The notes below the pieces were generated by a model. It worked only from the letters and a program-made list of their open reading frames with translations, made no database searches and was not told where the DNA came from. From Actinostola sp. cb2023 (Eukaryota > Cnidaria > Anthozoa > Actiniaria > Actinostolidae), in assembly GCA_033675265.1 (NCBI GenBank), contig JAUJYZ010000245.1, positions 92,001 through 156,000 of the forward strand: DNA of 64,000 nt. Direction: 5' to 3'. Both the position numbers and the translations under genes were made by a program. Positions 552-60,223 of this stretch are shown piece after piece (the first letter of the stretch is position 1; every line of letters begins with the position of its first letter).

Positions 552-3289
552 TACTGACACCTTACAAACTATTTAGACACCTTGCCAACCATTTACTGAC
601 ACCTTACCAACCACTTACTGACACCCTACCAACCACTTACTGACACCTTACCAACCACTTACTGACACCTTACCAACCACTTACTGACACCTTACCAACC
701 ACTTACTGACACCTTACCAACCACTTACTGACACCTTACCAACCACTTACTGACACCTTACCAACCACTTACTGACACCTTACCAACCACTTACTGACAC
801 CTTGCCAACCACTTACTGACACCTTGCCAACCACTTACTGACACCTTACCAACCACTTACTGACACCTTACCAACCACTTACTGACACCTTACCAACCAC
901 TTACTGACACCTTACCAACCACTTACTGACACCTTACCAACCACTTACTGACACCTTACCAACCACTTACTGACACCTTGCCAACCACTTACTGACACCT
1001 TACCAACCACTTACTGACACCTTACCAACCACTTACTGACACCTTACAAACCACTTGATGACACCTTACCAACCACTTACTGACACCTTACCAACCACTT
1101 ACTGACACCTTGCCAACCACTTACTGACACCTTACAAACCACTTGATGACACCTTACCAACCACTTACTGACACCTTGCTAACCACTTACTGACACCTTA
1201 CAAACCACTTGATGACACCTTACCAACCACTTACTGACACCTTACCAACCACTTACTGACACCTTGCCAACCACTTGCTGACACCTTACCAAACCACTTA
1301 CTGACACCTTACCAACCACTTACTGACACCTTACCAACCACTTACTGACACCTTGCCAACCACTTGCTGACACCTTACCAACCACTTACTGACACCTTAC
1401 CAACCACTTGATGACACCTTACCAACCACTTACTGACACCTTACCAACCACTTACTGACACCTTACCAGCCACTTACTGGCACCTTACCAACCACTTACT
1501 GACACCTTGCCAACCACTTACTGACACCTTACAAACCACTTGATGACACCTTACCAACCACTTACTGACACCTTGCTAACCACTTACTGACACCTTACAA
1601 ACCACTTGATGACACCTTACCAACCACTTACTGACACCTTACCAACCACTTACTGACACCTTGCCAACCACTTGCCGACACCTTACCAACCACTTACTGA
1701 CACCTTACCAACCACTTACTGACACCTTGCCAACCACTTACTGACACCTTACAAACCACTTGATGACACCTTACCAACCACTTACTGACACCTTGCTAAC
1801 CACTTACTGACACCTTACAAACCACTTGATGACACCTTACCAACCACTTACTGACACCTTACCAACCACTTACTGACACCTTGCCAACCACTTGCTGACA
1901 CCTTACCAACCACTTACTGACACCTTACCAACCACTTACTGACACCTTACAAACCACTTACTGACACCTTACCAACCACTTACTGACACCTTACCAACCA
2001 CTTACTGACACCTTGCCAACCACTTGCTGACACCTTACCAACCACTTACTGACACCTTACCAACCACTTACTGACACCTTACCAACCACTTACTGACACC
2101 TTGCCAACCACTTGCTGACACCTTACCAACCACTTACTGACACCTTACCAACCACTTGATGACACCTTACCAACCACTTACTGACACCTTACCAACCACT
2201 TACTGACACCTTACCAGCCACTTACTGGCACCTTACCAACCACTTACTGACACCTTGCCAACCACTTACTGACACCTTACAAACCACTTGATGACACCTT
2301 ACCAACCACTTACTGACACCTTGCTAACCACTTACTGACACCTTACAAACCACTTGATGACACCTTACCAACCACTTACTGACACCTTACCAACCACTTA
2401 CTGACACCTTGCCAACCACTTGCTGACACCTTACCAACCACTTACTGACACCTTACCAACCACTTACTGACACCTTACCAACCACTTACTGACACCTTGC
2501 CAACCACTTGCTGACACCTTACCAACCACTTACTGACACCTTACCAACCACTTGATGACACCTTACCAACCACTTACTGACACCTTACCAACCACTTACT
2601 GACACCTTACCAACCACTTACTGGCACCTTACCAACCACTTACTGACACCTCACCAACCACTTGCTGACACCTTACCAACCACTTGCCGATACCTTGCCA
2701 ACCACTTGCTGACACCTTACCAACCCCTTACTGACACCTTACCAACCACTTACTGACACCTTACCAAGCACTTACTGACACCTTACCAACCACTTACTGA
2801 CACCTTACCAACCACTTACTGACACCTTACCAACCACTTACTGACACCTTGCCAACCACTTGCTGACACCTTACCAACCACTTACTGACACCTTACCAAC
2901 CACTTGATGACACCTTACCAACCACTTACTGACACCTTACCAACCACTTACTGACACCTTACCAACCACTTACTGGCACCTTACCAACCACTTACTGACA
3001 CCTCACCAACCACTTGCTGACACCTTACCAACCACTTGCTGATACCTTGCCAACCACTTGCTGACACCTTACCAACCCCTTACTGACACCTTACCAACCA
3101 CTTACTGACACCTTACCAAGCACTTACTGACACCTTACCAACCACTTACTGACACCTTACAAACCACTTACTGACACCTTACAAACCACTTACTGACACC
3201 TTACAAACCACTTACTGACACCTTACCAACCACTTACTGACACCTTACCAACCACTTACTGACACCTTATCAACCACTTACTGACACCC
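552..3289. repeat. Satellite array of 22-bp units, about 124 copies
   Basis: The unit is ACTGACACCTTACCAACCAC plus TT, 22 bp, repeated head to tail for about 2.7 kb. Variant units (GATGACACC, TTGCTAACC, CTTGCTGACACC, ACTGGCACC) recur in the same order at spacings that are multiples of 22. TTGCTAACC is near 1177, 1573, 1793 and 2322, and TTACCAGCC near 1462 and 2211 (about 34 units apart). This points to growth by duplication of multi-unit blocks. The array starts about 70 bp after the upstream gene's stop codon. It has no coding potential. Confidence 0.95.
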
Positions 3290-3489
3290 ACCTACATGTG
3301 ACATAATAATTATTAAGATAAAGTCACAAAGACAAAATAATATTTGATAACTTAGAAGTTTATATTATACAGTGTTTACTTGATTTACAAAACAACCAGA
3401 ATAGCCTTGTTCCCAGAGCCATTCACAATATTTATATATATAAGATATTTGTATTATTTTATTGATAAATTCATAAAAAAGTCCATTAC

Positions 3490-3816
3490 AATAGACCTTT
3501 TTACCGATACGGCAGCCATCTTGAATTATGAAGAAATTATGGGATGCCCAGGGTGCAAGCTAGTAACCATTTGGCCTTGAAAAACTATGAAAACCTAATT
3601 TAAAGCAATGAATTTGTACAAAATTATACAACAATACACAACACATGTAGATATTAAGTCACACAACACTATGGCTAGAGTGACATAGAAAAATAATATA
3701 TTGGCGCGACTCCACTCTCTACAGTTTTTGGGTCATTTGCACCCTGGACATCCCATAATGTTTTAGCCAAAACAATAGAATCCAAAATGGCCGCCGTATC
3801 GGTAAAAAGGTCTATT
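3490..3816. mobile_element. Inverted-repeat (MITE-like) element
   Basis: The arms at about 3490-3560 and 3739-3816 are imperfect inverted copies. Each begins AATAGACCTTTTTACCGATA at its outer end and contains ATTATGGGATGYCCAGGGTG. The centre has no coding signal. The rest of 3290-4257 holds no recognisable gene. Confidence 0.65.
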
Positions 3817-4257
3817 CCTACAAGCCAAAATACTCTGTGAAATTTCAATATACGGTTGGTTATACACCATAAGCTACCTAATATACCATTACAAATGCCA
3901 AACTGTTGTTCAGTCAATCACACCATCATAACTACATGTATGGCTAATGTTATACAAAGCCTATATTAAATTATTAAAGACAATGTATCCAAGTCCATGA
4001 TGCATTGCGTGCACAAAGGATTTTTGTAGGCCATGAAACTCAAAATTGATTTCAGACCAAAAGAAAATCTAAAATGCACTTTTCCATTGGTTTGAACTAT
4101 CCTCAAACCAAAAAACAGTACTGTGATCTGCTAAACAGTGCATATTACATAGTTTTAGCATGTGCATGTAAACACAAAATTGTAGCATCAGTGCAAGGCA
4201 TCGTGGGCTTGGAGACAGGGCCCCTCAAAACTATATTATATAAAATGCTAGAGGGAA

Positions 4258-5126
4258 TTAGAGAGGAAAATACTTCCTCATAGTTTCAACAACATAAAAC
4301 ATAGCAGCATTTGCTGGAATAGATCTCATTAAACATGGAGTAAAACCTTTGTAAAACCTGGTCCATCCTCCTTCATTGTAGTAAAGTTTCTTTGCACAGT
4401 CTACAACACCCTTGAACTTTCGTTTAGACTTAGCAGCATTATCAGCTTGCATAGTTGATTTAATGACATCGGTTGGATAGGTAAGAAACCAGTAGAAGAA
4501 ACCACCAACGCCACCAGACAGGAGTAGTCCATATGGAGATACATCTTTGACTGTTCCTCCTTCTGGTGTTTGAAGGGTGCGGGAGATTTCATAAAACCCT
4601 GTAGTAATATTATTCAATCATGGGTTTAATGTCAACTATTTCAACCTTGGTTTTCTCAAACTCTCTCTGGCACTTTCTTGGAAAGAAATGTATATCCTTT
4701 GGATTTGAATACCTAGGATTTCAACCTTGCTATTCTGAACCTCTGCTACCTTGAACTACATGCATTCTTCTTGTCGCTTGAGTGTTCAACATACATGTGT
4801 AGTGGGTTCTAAAGCTATCTTCTTTTATTAAATAAATCTGTGTTGTAGCTACATGTAGTTCATTATAAATTAATACTTGGATCATGAACCTGGAATTTAT
4901 TTCTGAAAGAAACCGAGCTTTTGAACTAGTTATAACTTTCAATTCACTCACCAAAGAAACATCCATTAGCAGGTATATTCCTAAGCCAAGTGGCTGACAG
5001 TCCCTGATAGCATCCCCGTATACCATGCTTCTGTGATATGACATACGCAGCATGGAACACATTGCGATATTGCATTGGTTCTCCAGCCTGAGCTCTGATT
5101 ATTTGAACCTGCATTTTGGACTTGAA
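4258..5126 (-). CDS. Mitochondrial carrier (SLC25) family protein, two 3' exons
   Basis: Two minus-strand exons are seen: 5126-4952 and 4598-4258. The junction splits one Gly codon, giving ...NGCFFG-FYEIS..., and ends at a TAA. The first encodes FKSKMQVQ and the rest of carrier repeat 2, including YQGLSATWLRNIPAN. The second holds all of repeat 3 with the signature YPTDVIKSTMQAD (P-x-D-x-x-K) and YKGFTPCLMRSIPANAAMF. The family moves metabolites across the inner mitochondrial membrane. The RxxPANA pattern fits the carnitine/ornithine/basic amino acid subgroup (SLC25A15, A20, A29 or A45 type), but I cannot choose one. About half of the usual 300 residues is visible. No exon for repeat 1 or the start of repeat 2 was found up to 9.1 kb, so they lie in a long intron I could not read or are lost. 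Confidence 0.8.
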
Positions 5127-5219
5127 CTGTATAAAATAAAGTAAAGATAAAAATCATGATTATCAATGCAGTCTCTCTGAGCCATACATCCTCAGGACAA
5201 ACTTTTGCTGTCTGGCTTA

Positions 5220-5510
5220 AGTGAGGTGTCCATCTTAGAGAGTGAATTTATAGTAAAACAGTGCAGCAGGGACCAGATAAAAATATCCAGCTTAGAATGG
5301 TGTCTGGCTTAGATGGGTGTCTGGCTTAGTAAGGTGTCTGGCTAAAATGAAGATGGGTGTCTGGCTTAGAATGGTGTCTGGCTTAGATGGGTGTCTGGCT
5401 TAGTAAGGTGTCTGGCTAAAATGAAGATGGGTGTCTGGCTTAGAAAGGTGTCTGGTTTAGATGGGTGTCTGGCTTAGAAGGGTGTCTGGTTTAGATGGGT
5501 GTCTGCCTAG
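5220..5510. repeat. Minisatellite, about 17-bp unit (gtgtctggcttagatgg)
   Basis: Repeats of GTGTCTGGCTTAGATGG with variants (TTAGTAAG, TTAGAATG) are arranged in a higher-order block that occurs twice and includes GGCTAAAATGAAGATGG. No open frame of interest. Confidence 0.85.
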
Positions 5511-22539: not shown

Positions 22540-22780
22540 CCCAGGGGGGGTACTCAGGGGTATCAGTGATGGGGAGGTGCGAATGAGGCCAAACTTTTTA
22601 ACCCAAACAAAGAAAAAGTCCATTACGCAAAAAAAAAAAGACCATGAAATCCCATGCAATCTAGAACGGTAGGATATCATTTTTATCAACCCCCCAAAAA
22701 TAGAAAATTGATAACCCAAAAAAGTCCCAAGCCGCGAATTTCAAACCCAAAAAAGGTCTTCGCACCTCCCTGTCACTGAT

Positions 22781-22815
<35 letters not shown>

Positions 22816-22821
22816 CCTGGG
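22540..22821. mobile_element. Inverted-repeat element with 8-bp target duplication, downstream of CAMKMT
   Basis: It begins CCCAGGGGGGGTACTCAGGG and ends with its complement plus a 34-C run. CCTACAAG directly flanks both ends (22532-22539 and 22822-22829), an exact 8-bp duplication typical of hAT-like insertions. The family copy at 47,043-47,676 shares the termini and internal phrases such as GATATCATTTTTATCAACCC. The 22.4-23.3 kb gap between CAMKMT and CCDC167 is otherwise AT-rich with several AATAAA near 22,950-22,990. Confidence 0.85.
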
Positions 22822-44900: not shown

Positions 44901-45227
44901 ATGAAGTATTTTGGAAAGGCAGTTATCTTGTTGGTCCTGACGATATTCGTGTTTGAGGTCCAGGCCGACTGCTATGGTGACTGGAGCAGATGCTCAAGAT
45001 GGTCTCACGGTTTCGGCAAAGAAAAACCTGGTCAGTCGGGTCTATGGCTGAAATGTGACCCTCACTGCAGACTTAACCTGGGGAAAAGCGGAGGAGTGTG
45101 CCGTCTTGTTCCTAACACCTGCTGGTGGATGCCAGATCATGTAATGGTCTACCAATGCCAATGCTACATCGGTAGTAAACCAACGGTGGCACCAACACAA
45201 TCATCTAATTCATCTTCCCCTACTTAA
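44901..45227 (+). CDS. Macin-family antimicrobial peptide precursor (hydramacin-like)
   Basis: This is a single-exon gene for 108 residues. Residues 1-22 are a clear signal peptide ending in VQA, followed by DCYGDWSRC. The mature part has eight cysteines (24, 31, 52, 56, 67, 74, 86, 88) with the macin pattern: C-x6-C near the N-terminus with DWSRC, a Gly-rich loop with LWLKC, CRL, and a final CQC. Macins (hydramacin, neuromacin, theromacin) are secreted cationic peptides of invertebrate innate immunity that kill or aggregate bacteria. Unlike the short family members, it has a Ser/Thr/Pro-rich tail (TVAPTQSSNSSSPT), possibly O-glycosylated. A TATA box lies upstream and AATAAA at 45,493. A 97%-identical truncated copy lies inside a transposon at 47.1-47.4 kb. 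The identification rests on cysteine spacing and the DWSRC motif. Confidence 0.85.
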   Translation: MKYFGKAVILLVLTIFVFEVQADCYGDWSRCSRWSHGFGKEKPGQSGLWLKCDPHCRLNLGKSGGVCRLVPNTCWWMPDHVMVYQCQCYIGSKPTVAPTQSSNSSSPT

Positions 45228-45492
45228 ACGTAACGCCCACCGATTGCAAGCACACCTTTGGTAAAAAGAGAGCCGGAAAAACATCGTGAGATTCCAAACA
45301 GTTGCTGGTAGATGCGTCAAAGTATAAAAAGACTTGCGATTTATAGTAGCTGAGCTCAGTGCCGACAACGGTCACTGCGGGATAAGATAGACACTGAACT
45401 AATTTATAAGATGAATGGAGAACTAGTAGACTGAATTAGGGACAAACACTGTAAGAAATTAATGCGGCTTGCAAAGATGTATATATATATAA

Positions 45493-45498
45493 AATAAA
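45493..45498 (+). terminator. Polyadenylation signal AATAAA of the macin gene
   Basis: AATAAA lies 266 bp after the macin stop codon, just before an AAT microsatellite. Confidence 0.45.
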
Positions 45499-47034
45499 AT
45501 ATAATTATAATAATAATAATAATTTATTTCTTAAAAACGCATACACAATGTCTCTATGTTTTTTATAATAATAATAATAATAATAACTGTTTATTTAAGT
45601 GTCCAATTTCAGCTCACTAGTTCGTTTTCTTAAATGACGTTAATTGTTGTCAAACTTATATTTCCTTATACAATAAAAATCGCGCCCATTTATCACTAGA
45701 CTGCAATGATTATTGATATGGTTTGGCAAGTCGATCAGTAGCTCTCCTGATATGCCGAAGAGCGCTCATCGATCCGGGGCGCTCATCTTTCTAGCCGACG
45801 TTCTGGAACTTTCTACATCATCGAAGACGGGTTCGGTAACTGGCGACGACGTAAACATTTCAAACTCTCCACTGCGCATGGAAAGTGTTTGCGAAAATCT
45901 CCGTTTTCGCTCACTTTCAACGTTTCGATATATATATATATAATATGTGGACGAAAAGCCTCGCAAAAAAAAGCTTAATTACAAACAAAACTGAACGAGT
46001 ACTCTGAAGTAAACTATCCGACATTTCGTTTCTGGTCGAACAAGCAAAAGCTATATTAAAATTATAGTTGGGGGTCAACAAGTTAAGGAACAATGTTTCA
46101 TTATGATTTGTACAAGTATTCTATTTTAAAACTAATGGAATCGAAGATGGCTCTCCGTGCTTCTATTTAATTAATAAACAAATTTCCGTGGTTTACTAGC
46201 GAAATAGACCATGCGGGATGTTAATTGGGAGGCACGAGAAAAGTTTGAAAATGATCACGAGCCGGAAGAGATTAGTTTCAAAACTTTTGTCACAACAACA
46301 ACATCCAACAACATAACACTTAAAACAAACGTTTCCTCGACTTTGGTGTTGAAAACATTGCGATATACCGAAACTATGGATTTTTGATAAAAAAGAATAA
46401 GAATGGTGAAAAAATGGCAAGAAATTTGAGGAATAAAATTTTTTAGTTAGTGCGTACGTACTTAGGCCATCATCACACCATCGAGCGCGCGCTCGGCTGG
46501 GTTTGTTTTCTTCAGAATTTTAGTATTTTAATTCAGCTAGTGAAAACTCCAGCTAGAATTTTTGGCTTAAATTTGGTTCGAAAATCCTAGTTGTTGTAAA
46601 AAACGAATCGCATGCAGTTTTCCATTGTCTGTACGTACTCGTATTTATTTATTTACCAGATAAGTCTTCACTCTTTATATGTGAAAGCGCATTTGGGCAA
46701 TTATTCTGGAGAGTGCGCTATAGAAATGATAATAGTAATAAAGTATTATTATTATTACTCTTTATAGTAGAGTATTACAGACTGCATTAATTTTAACAAA
46801 TTGCAGATGGTTTCGAGTTGTCTGTACTCTTATTGACACACACTTGACGTCATAAAAATGTTCAAAGTGAAATCAGATCACTCGCGCAGAAGTTTACAGA
46901 CTGCATTAATAATAATATTGATGATATATGACGTCAAAAAGAGTTTTGAACATTTTTTGACGTCATCTACTGATGAATGAGTAGAAAACTGCATGTGATT
47001 TGCTAAATGACGGCTAACTAGCAAACGATATCGA
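45499..47034. other. Intergenic, no gene seen
   Basis: AAT microsatellites lie at 45,507-45,525 and 45,566-45,585, and TATA repeats at about 45,930. Phrases around 46,612-46,632 and 46,983-46,996 (GCATGCAGTTTTC and complement) and two GACTGCATTAAT copies suggest an old inverted-repeat insertion. The frame at 45,713-45,943 has no domain. Confidence 0.45.
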
Positions 47035-47042
47035 CAACAAAG

Positions 47043-47676
47043 TCAAGGGGGAGGGGGAGGGGGGGGGGGGGTTACTCAGGGGTATCAGTGACGGGGAGGT
47101 GCAAAGTCCTTTTTTGGGTTTGAAATTTGCGGCTTGGGACCTTTTTAGCAATCCGTGGGCGTTACGTTTAATTAGGGCAAGATGAATTAGATGATTGTGT
47201 TGGTGCCTCCGTTGGTTTACTACCGATGTAGCATTGGCATTGGTAGACCATTTTACATGATCTGGCATCCACCAGCAGGTGTTAGGAACAAGACGGCACA
47301 CTCCTCCGCTTTTCCCCAGGTTAATTCTGCAGTGAGGGTCACATTTCAGCCATAGACCCGACTGACCAGGTTTTTCTTTGCCGAGATCGTAAGACCATTT
47401 TGAGCATCTGCTCCAGTCCTCAAAGCAGAAAATTTAGCAATTTTCTAGTGGACTTTTTTGATATAAAGATTCTGGCAAGGACTTTTTTGGGGTTGATAAA
47501 AATGATATCCTACCGTTCTCGATTTTATGTGGACTTTTTGGGGGGTTACGTTCTGGGCCGTTGGACTTTTTTTGGGTCTTGTTTTTGCGTAATGGACTTT
47601 TTTGGGGGTTAAAAAGTTTGGCCTCATTCGCACCTCCCCGTCACTGATACCCCTGAGTACCCCCCTCCCCCCTGGG
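47043..47676. mobile_element. Inverted-repeat transposon with 8-bp target duplication carrying a macin fragment
   Basis: The ends contain ACTCAGGGGTATCAGTGACG...GAGGTGC and its complement and match the 282-bp element at 22,540. CAACAAAG directly flanks both ends (47,035-47,042 and 47,677-47,684), an exact 8-bp target duplication as in hAT-like elements. Compared with the 22.5-kb copy it is about 350 bp longer, mostly because of a 271-bp insert of macin sequence. Confidence 0.9.
47148..47418 (-). pseudogene. Macin gene fragment inside a transposon
   Basis: On the minus strand this matches the macin gene from 44,979 to 45,247, that is from codon 27 through the stop and 20 bp of 3' flank. I count nine substitutions over 269 bp and one 2-bp insertion. 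It lacks the promoter, the start and the signal peptide, and the insertion after codon HV shifts the frame, so it cannot make a macin. The source must be this gene or a very recent paralogue. Confidence 0.9.
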
Positions 47677-47794
47677 CAACAAAGAATACTGTTAGTTCCC
47701 TAATGTGGTTACTAATCTTGTCGTTTATACCGATGAAGTAGCATCTAAAAAAATGTAAAATCAGTATTTGGATTTGCCATAACTATGAACAATA

Positions 47795-58387: not shown

Positions 58388-60223
58388 GCACATAACCTAA
58401 ACATTGCAGAAGTGGTATCGTACAATCATATTGCCAACAACATTGCATGTAATGTGGCATTTTGTGTAAGTCTCATATATATGTTTAAATGTTTATGAAA
58501 CTTTAAAACCAGTTACCGGTAGTCATTAATTACAGCTATTTCAAAAAAGGTTCTCTCATGTTTCGTGCGTATTGCATATTGCACTTTGCGTATTGCATTG
58601 TGTATTCGATGATTGAAATGCGTCTTAGGTGTATAAAACAGACATGCGCCACCATATACAGTGATTGGCTTGGATGGAAAGTTATTTGGTTTGTCGACGT
58701 GTTGAGCTCAGTGAGTAGAAAAATGATTCTCAGTATAATCATATGCAAAACGCAATGTGCAATGCACGCGCACAATACGCACGAAGCACAAGACAATGTT
58801 TTTTGACATAGCTGTATACTTACTCAGATATAGTCACAATGCATGTTCACTGAGTGAACAGAGCAGTCTAAAATATTCTTTGCTTGAGAAGTTGGTCATA
58901 GGATATAGAACATTAATTATTATAATACACCAAAAGTAACTGATTATATGATGCAATAATATTATTAATACTTTTAATTTAATACCATAAGTAATATAAT
59001 TACACAAAGAATGAATACAAAATGAAATAGCAACAGTTTAATATAATATTAGTTTCTGTGTGTAAATGCTGAACTAGGTTCTATATATTCAGACCTGCCA
59101 ACTCTCCCGGTTTAGCCGGGAGTCTCCAGATTTTGGACCTCAACTCCCGGTCTCCCGGTTTGAAGACAAAATCTCCTGGCTAATCACGTCACGATTTACG
59201 GTGAAATTGCATAAGACAACGTAACAATCTTTTTTTTTATGGTTCGGAAATGTTTAGGGACTTTAGGGTTGTCCGCCATTTTGCTTTTAAAGCACGTCAA
59301 GATTTGCACATAACCTAAACATTGCAGAAGTGGTATCGTACAATCATATTGCCAACAACATTGCATGTAATGTGGCATTTTGTGTAAGTCTCATATATAT
59401 GTTTAAATGTTTATGAAACTTTAAAACCAGTTACCGGTAGTCATTAATTACAGCTATTTCAAAAAAGGTTCTCTCATGTTTCGTGCGTATTGCATATTGC
59501 ACTTTGCGTATTGCATTGTGTATTCGATGATTGAAATGCGTCTTAGGTGTATAAAACAGACATGCGCCACCATATACAGTGATTGGCTTGGATGGAAAGT
59601 TATTTGGTTTGTCGACGTGTTGAGCTCAGTGAGTAGAAAAATGATTCTCAGTATAATCATATGCAAAACGCAATGTGCAATGCACGCGCACAATACGCAC
59701 GAAGCACAAGACAATGTTTTTTGACATAGCTGTATACTTACTCAGATATAGTCACAATGCATGTTCACTGAGTGAACAGAGCAGTCTAAAATATTCTTTG
59801 CTTGAGAAGTTGGTCATAGGATATAGAACATTAATTATTATAATACACCAAAAGTAACTGATTATATGATGCAATAATATTATTAATACTTTTAATTTAA
59901 TACCATAAGTAATATAATTACACAAAGAATGAATACAAAATGAAATAGCAACAGTTTAATATAATATTAGTTTCTGTGTGTAAATGCTGAACTAGGTTCT
60001 ATATATTCAGACCTGCCAACTCTCCCGGTTTAGCCGGGAGTCTCCAGATTTTGGACCTCAACTCCCGGTCTCCCGGTTTGAAGACAAAATCTCCTGGCTA
60101 ATCACGTCACGATTTACGGTGAAATTGCATAAGACAACGTAACAATCTTTTTTTTTATGGTTCGGAAATGTTTAGGGACTTTAGGGTTGTCCGCCATTTT
60201 GCTTTTAAAGCACGTCAAGATTT
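58388..60223. repeat. 918-bp direct tandem duplication, two apparently identical copies
   Basis: 58,388-59,305 and 59,306-60,223 match base for base wherever I compared them, including the frames at 58,536-58,796 and 59,454-59,714, whose translations are identical. Each copy contains one CAGCTATTTCAAAAAAGGTT MITE (58,533-58,814 and 59,451-59,732, TA flanks) and one CTCCCGGTTTAGCCGGGAGT repeat. The block begins 46 bp after the hydantoinase stop codon and ends at a 25-G run. Confidence 0.95.

Follow-up and report, generated by a model that had tools for sequence, protein, structure and literature searches.

A fragment of the neighbouring macin gene inside a short inverted-repeat transposon of the sea anemone Actinostola sp. 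cb2023 and its probable capture by gap repair

A MITE-like transposon in the genome of Actinostola sp. cb2023 carries an antisense piece of the antimicrobial peptide gene that lies beside it. The stretch analyzed here (the window, 64,000 nucleotides) corresponds to positions 92001-156000 of contig C729, and genome-wide searches covered the 424-Mb assembly in 1,594 contigs. Target duplications flank the element, it belongs to a large family, its interruption has defined breakpoints, its insert is the only transposon-borne macin copy found, and the donor gene lies 1.9 kb away. We regard it as likely that the fragment was copied in place while a gap in the resident element was repaired, that the donor gene was afterwards partly converted by a paralog (paralog A), and that the insert keeps the older sequence. 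The structure described in the original prediction is confirmed as real and non-random; the size of the fragment and the route proposed for it required revision.

The element and its macin insert

The features on which the analysis rests are as follows.

44901-45227, plus strand: macin (antimicrobial peptide) gene, an intronless single-exon ORF of 108 aa (PF14865), the closest macin to the insert and its donor
44969-45247, plus strand: donor segment matching the insert by alignment
47035-47042, no strand: left target-site duplication CAACAAAG, an exact direct repeat with 47677-47684
47043-47146, plus strand: left part of the element, 78-96% identical to the left parts of the other genomic copies listed, and delimited by alignment with 19 copies
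47060-47105, plus strand: left terminal inverted repeat arm with the conserved core CAGGGGTATCAGTGACGGGGAGGTGC, recognized by complementarity to 47627-47672 and by the genome-wide core count
47148-47428, minus strand: captured macin fragment, antisense to the gene, 267/279 identical to 44969-45247 (PF14865, 31.6 bits)
47429-47433, no strand: junction filler AAAAT, which with its neighbors forms an 8-bp perfect stem with a 4-base loop (AGAAAATT-TAGC-AATTTTCT; chance 0.0025)
47434-47676, plus strand: right part of the element, restarting at TTAGCAATTTTC and ending in CCCTGGG, 89-95% identical to the right parts of the other copies listed
47627-47672, minus strand: right terminal inverted repeat arm, complementary to the left arm
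47677-47684, no strand: right target-site duplication CAACAAAG, an exact direct repeat with 47035-47042
22540-22821, minus strand: shorter family copy without the insert, found by alignment, with its own 8-bp duplication CCTACAAG on both sides

The element spans 634 bp, and both the exact 8-bp duplication around it and the shorter relative with a duplication of its own were found as first described. Its arms measure 46 bp each and are 93% complementary. The left terminus TCAAGGGG is a diverged version of the family sequence CCCAGGGG, the outermost bases reading TCAAGG where the family has CCCAGG. At least 10 bp of transposon termini are retained on both flanks of the insert, as Tan et al. 2021 ask of such elements.

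The proposed genome search for further copies of the terminal repeats placed a 26-nt terminal core, with up to two mismatches, at 2,409 sites (1,219 forward and 1,190 reverse), and the reversed control gave 0; this number of termini corresponds to roughly 1,200 copies or more. Among 18 copies that were fetched, 10 have an exact 8-bp duplication at ends of the CCCAGG..CCTGGG type; two of these (L017 and L019) share the same duplication and are possibly segmental duplicates. A scan of the other eight gave no clean 8-bp duplication at the ends, and the core was not located in two of them. An 8-bp target duplication is a trait of hAT elements that also fits P elements and others, and it is present in these 10 of 18 copies as well as in both window copies. 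Because the copies are about 300-350 bp long, too short for a transposase, the element is classed as a short, high-copy, MITE-like, non-autonomous cut-and-paste transposon. Two other long members (C87:35000-37200 and C125:54600-56700), picked by eye among 100 of the 2,409 places, carry different inserts, one a long palindromic foldback and the other about 570 bp of no recognized kind.

The insert lies antisense to the intact ORF, as had been predicted, and both belong to the Macin family, with profile scores above the gathering cut-off of 27 bits (gene, 27.7). The predicted extent of the fragment held at one end, 20 bp past the stop codon, but its other end lies at the last base of codon 23 and not at codon 27, so that it measures 281 bp (47148-47428) instead of 271 bp (47,148-47,418). 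Identity to the 279-bp donor segment is 95.7%, below the roughly 97% first estimated, with 12 substitutions and one 2-bp insertion in the copy. This insertion shifts the reading frame after WWMPDHV, and the macin part is not preceded by an ATG in frame; judged by its reading frame, the insert is a frameshifted fragment and not an intact gene. A search for homologous proteins with the macin gave no match, and scanning the window for Rfam families and tRNAs likewise yielded no hits.

All five candidates from the whole-genome DNA search with the macin gene were scored. They are the gene, the insert, paralog A (84%, on C529) and, likewise on C529, a third gene (paralog B) represented by two pieces, which leaves the window insert as the sole transposon-borne macin copy found; the search for other copies with a macin insert, suggested in the original prediction, thus came back empty. 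Another assembled paralog was considered as the donor and rejected, as none of the five candidates is closer to the insert than the neighboring gene (about 95%, range 95.0-95.7%, vs 83.6% for paralog A). The window gene has the features by which Tan et al. 2021 recognize a parent, namely at least 90% identity, a unique best match and a length ratio of 80-120%. The family self-alignment of the window placed no copy of the element family near the donor, the rule of Tan et al. applying to any transposon within 100 bp.

A Macin profile search, with all 21 candidates scored, gave 14 matches at E <= 10, of which 5 exceed the cut-off. Reading frames were examined at 8 of the 14 places (9 including the window gene), the 5 weakest, with internal stops, having been left out. 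Among the frames read, full-frame macins outside C729 and C529 form a different subgroup; uninterrupted ORFs of this second subgroup (CWATWSRCTKWSGG / CYSTWSRCSEWSKGG type) occur on C1275, C1341 and C514.

Paralog A (C529:262000-268500, reverse strand) has an insert-free family copy of its own about 200 bp 3' of its stop codon, flanked by TGATAACT; the corresponding 3' flank of the window gene lacks a family copy. Paralog B (C529:272000-280000, reverse strand, about 2955-5305) is interrupted by about 2.3 kb with the edges CTTAAGGTATCAGGGTACC ... GGTACCCTGATACCTTAAG. An intron was considered for this split and rejected, since it has inverted ends next to a TTAA repeat and looks like a TTAA-type transposon, a kind of element described in a paper on coral MITEs (PMC2872659). 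The insert edge was also suspected to coincide with an exon boundary in a paralog containing an intron (C529:274-277 kb), an idea likewise dropped, the gene and paralog A being single ORFs. Homology between the window and C529 stops at 46124, and no counterpart of the site at 47043 was found in 16 kb of C529 (252500-268500). No second full-length place for the left flank (46150-47042) was seen among the best 40 of 2,319 first-look candidates, the majority stemming from a repeat inside the flank; between the macin gene and the element, positions 46320-46630 are part of a high-copy repeat. Elsewhere in the window, a stretch at 58507-59741 recurs 918 bp later, its ORFs identical, in what resembles a recent tandem duplication, and 552-3288 holds a tandem array with self-alignment offsets that are mostly multiples of about 22 bp and 92-95% identity.

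Route of the fragment into the element

The alignment of family members defines what was lost and gained. At the position of the insert, each of the 19 other aligned copies (18 fetched and the short window copy) has just 3-4 bases, mostly GGGG. In the window element, the left part ends in CTTTTT (47146) and the right part restarts at 47434; 4 bases of an element of about 346 bp are gone, about 287 bp stand in their place, and both breakpoints are internal. The motif GCAAT is common to the donor edge and to the element beside the gap, a match expected for 2.9% of random donor edges (chance 0.029, post hoc). This left junction can be parsed in several ways, as blunt with 1 nt or as GCAAT microhomology with a deletion. 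At the other junction, the fold-back stem is matched by 0.25% of random fillers (post hoc). The sequence TTTAGCAAT is present on both sides of the insert (47144-47152 and 47433-47441).

These marks suggest the following course. The transposon would have landed downstream of the macin gene. A break inside the resident element would later have been mended by copying: repair synthesis would have changed template to the macin gene close by, produced an antisense copy of about 280 bp and then returned to the element, which would have lost 4 bp (GGGG) on the way. We infer template-switch repair because GCAAT is shared at one junction, a CAG-anchored fold-back filler stands at the other and the donor is near. 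In 346 compared columns, the window element has two private substitutions and one that is near-private; these are about as few as those of the insert and do not separate the two ages, so that insertion before capture is a presumed order.

The same marks are on record in other animals. Tan et al. 2021 (PMC8277862) attribute the majority of single-copy animal Pack-TIRs to gap filling. According to their account, 160 of 281 unique animal Pack-TIRs have a parent within 15 kb, most of these within 5 kb; microhomology occurs at a breakpoint in 190 of the 281, breakpoints are skewed towards internal positions, and the median gap is 4.6% of the transposon length (PMC8277862). In 91 of 97 primate cases the outgroups hold the empty transposon, and excision-driven repair is disfavored there on the grounds that the gaps are small and internal (PMC8277862). 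The window element shares with these cases a TIR structure with both termini kept and a non-transposon filler, a donor a few kb away, internal breakpoints, a small loss, microhomology and a single copy (PMC8277862). It appears, on this comparison, to be a single-copy animal Pack-TIR formed by gap filling, a kind of event already known in animals.

The original prediction correctly placed part of a host gene within a cut-and-paste element; its comparison with Pack-MULE or hAT transduplication, with mobilization of the cargo, was not borne out. One transposon-borne copy, a donor 1.9 kb off, internal breakpoints, a 4-bp loss and junction microhomology leave such mobilization unsupported, and gap filling independent of transposition is favored because the same marks are described by Tan et al. 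2021 (PMC8277862). A transposition-dependent origin, in which the element picked up the macin piece at another place or an earlier time and then jumped here with its load, perhaps by a local hop, is unlikely in our judgment. Intact arms and the exact target duplication do show that this class of element transposes, and private mutations about as few as those of the insert would fit a capture just before insertion. Such a jump should nevertheless be weighed against the single transposon-borne copy found and against the odds of a random landing less than 2 kb from the donor (about 4 kb in 424 Mb, by arithmetic 1e-5), unless hops are local. The multicopy Pack-TIRs of frogs and alligators in the set of Tan et al. 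2021 (PMC8277862), moreover, are remote from their parents.

Two further readings carry far less weight. A 5'-truncated retrocopy of macin mRNA, placed in the element by LINE machinery, would agree with the intronless gene, as a cDNA origin is compatible with the lack of splicing signs; TTTAGCAAT also flanks the insert in the manner of a target duplication, and a short A/T run adjoins the 3' end. We hold this origin to be very improbable all the same, given that, apart from the T-run of the element itself, there is no poly(A), that the copy stops 20 bp past the stop codon, away from a polyadenylation signal (nearest AATAAA at 45493), that 4 bp of the element were lost and that the insertion adjoins its own parent. 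The long TAC repeat downstream, at 47.8-48.4 kb, might raise suspicion of a chimeric assembly. Yet the two halves of the element meet in the register of the family and the duplication outside them is intact; with 12 substitutions and an indel relative to the gene, the copy is no mis-joined duplicate of it; and the contig is 1.06 Mb long, all of which makes an assembly artifact hardly credible.

Differences between the insert and its parent gene

The proposed in-place gap repair is joined in our explanation to a later change in the donor. Paralog A would have overwritten a stretch of the gene by gene conversion within a tract in which the two are now identical:

44923-45022, plus strand: 100-bp run identical in the window gene and paralog A, inferred to include the gene-conversion tract

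When gene, insert and paralog A are aligned together, 150 of 871 aligned bases (about 17%) differ between the gene and paralog A; the next longest identical run is 40 bp, and a 100-bp run was reached in 0 of 20,000 permutations. From the insert edge on, the run in which the gene equals paralog A is 54 bp long, with 37 differences among the 257 bases compared (40 of 20,000 permutations). Insert-specific sites are concentrated in this part of the tract, with 7 of 54 inside vs 1 of 225 outside (Fisher 5e-5), or 1 of 185 outside when only sites where the gene matches paralog A are counted (1.4e-4), the tract limits being drawn from the same data as those tested. Seven of the 12 gene-insert differences fall in the tract (7/54 vs 5/225 outside, p 0.0026), and 3 of the 5 outside are changes in the gene, the insert and paralog A agreeing. 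Beyond the tract, gene and insert are 97.8% identical, with paralog A alone deviating at 36 of 225 sites.

At the seven tract sites (codons 25-38), the insert reads CFEDWSRCSKWSYDL where the gene and paralog A read CYGDWSRCSRWSHGF, and each changed codon specifies a different amino acid. The conversion step is drawn from this distribution of differences, and the insert probably preserves donor sequence from before the conversion; the simplest reading is that paralog A overwrote part of the gene after the capture, CFEDWSRCSKWSYDL in the insert being the donor's older state and CYGDWSRCSRWSHGF its present one. The direction from paralog A to the gene is preferred because conversion in the opposite direction would not raise the difference between gene and insert. 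The insert form fits the Macin profile better than the gene does (31.6 vs 27.7 bits). Other macins (C1275 and C514) match neither state consistently and do not favor either as the ancestral one.

Signal-peptide DNA makes up the first half of the 100-bp tract, and paralog B has it in common with the other two genes: in the first 70 nt, paralogs A and B differ at one position, the gene and A at one, and the gene and B at two. This half may thus be conserved in all three genes and not be specific to the gene and paralog A, and the sharing by paralog B slightly lowered our confidence in the explanation as a whole.

The same observation lends something to the opposing view that no conversion took place and that the donor was an unassembled macin paralog or a divergent allele, or that the seven clustered differences are ordinary mutations in a dead copy. 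Macins are a multi-copy family with divergent members, and the seven changes are all confined to codons 25-38, every changed codon specifying a different amino acid. We think this view rather doubtful, although it deserves more weight than the alternative routes of capture. Another donor is hard to reconcile with the close identity of insert and gene outside the tract, where paralog A stands apart, and ordinary mutation is hard to reconcile with the clustering (p 5e-5, or 1.4e-4, under uniform mutation) of the differences inside the very run in which the gene and paralog A are identical.

Comparison with known systems and possible function

Conversion of the donor by paralog A is where the window element may depart from the single-copy animal Pack-TIRs. 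Its donor is an antimicrobial peptide gene and its insert appears older than the conversion of the parent, so that the less usual feature here is the probable preservation of pre-conversion gene sequence. Neither gene conversion nor siRNA is a term used in the main text of Tan et al. 2021 (PMC8277862), and the words mollusc and brachiopod are likewise missing from it. A limited literature search, judged by titles and the beginnings of abstracts, gave no report of a transposon-captured copy that dates a gene conversion of its parent.

Other systems are alike in part. Plant Pack-MULE and Pack-TYPE elements also hold gene fragments within TIR elements, but their acquisition is described as proceeding via fused neighboring insertions and re-mobilization (PMC8903248), whereas the window element exists in one copy found, without a sign of fused elements. 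More than one copy of the captured sequence is expected of a Pack-MULE, and only one transposon-borne macin copy was present among the five scored candidates. In maize, gene fragments are reported in 2 Ds2 and 9 Ds-l4 elements, with post-excision repair cited as a suggestion (PMC3260210). Gene-derived filler DNA in a short TIR element and break repair as its suggested source are common to both cases; the donor of Ds2-22 is on another chromosome (PMC3260210). The window element is likened to hAT elements by the length of its duplication. Turmoil-1 of C. elegans is likewise an animal TIR element with host coding fragments, but these sit in its inverted repeats and it has several genomic copies (PMC2572040). 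Fold-back templated insertions resemble the right junction in having a very short inverted copy beside the break and 0-5 bp of junction microhomology; they were described in yeast after an induced break (PMC11724301), and in the window the process is deduced from one scar.

The gene and the insert together form an inverted repeat. The interval between gene and element contains five AATAAA signals (45493-46737), which suggest that normal macin transcripts end before the element. That the inverted copy feeds back on the macin gene, either through a read-through hairpin giving rise to siRNA, in line with the antisense or small-RNA idea of the original prediction, or as a cassette for write-back by conversion, is a speculation to which we give very little credence. 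Were the hairpin version true, a stem of about 280 bp in read-through RNA could seed endogenous siRNA against macin transcripts; were the cassette version true, the old N-terminal half of the peptide could be rewritten into the gene, in a macin family in which conversion is already indicated. On either view, a scar left by break repair within a transposon would have become a new component of innate immunity, with a regulatory or a diversifying role.

The locus offers a base-resolved animal example in which a piece of a host gene probably entered a DNA transposon without being moved by the transposon. Its trapped copy may serve as a time stamp: it suggests that a paralog later rewrote part of an antimicrobial peptide gene, at seven sites directly behind the presumed signal peptide. 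Both the direction of this conversion and its order relative to the capture thereby become testable in relatives.
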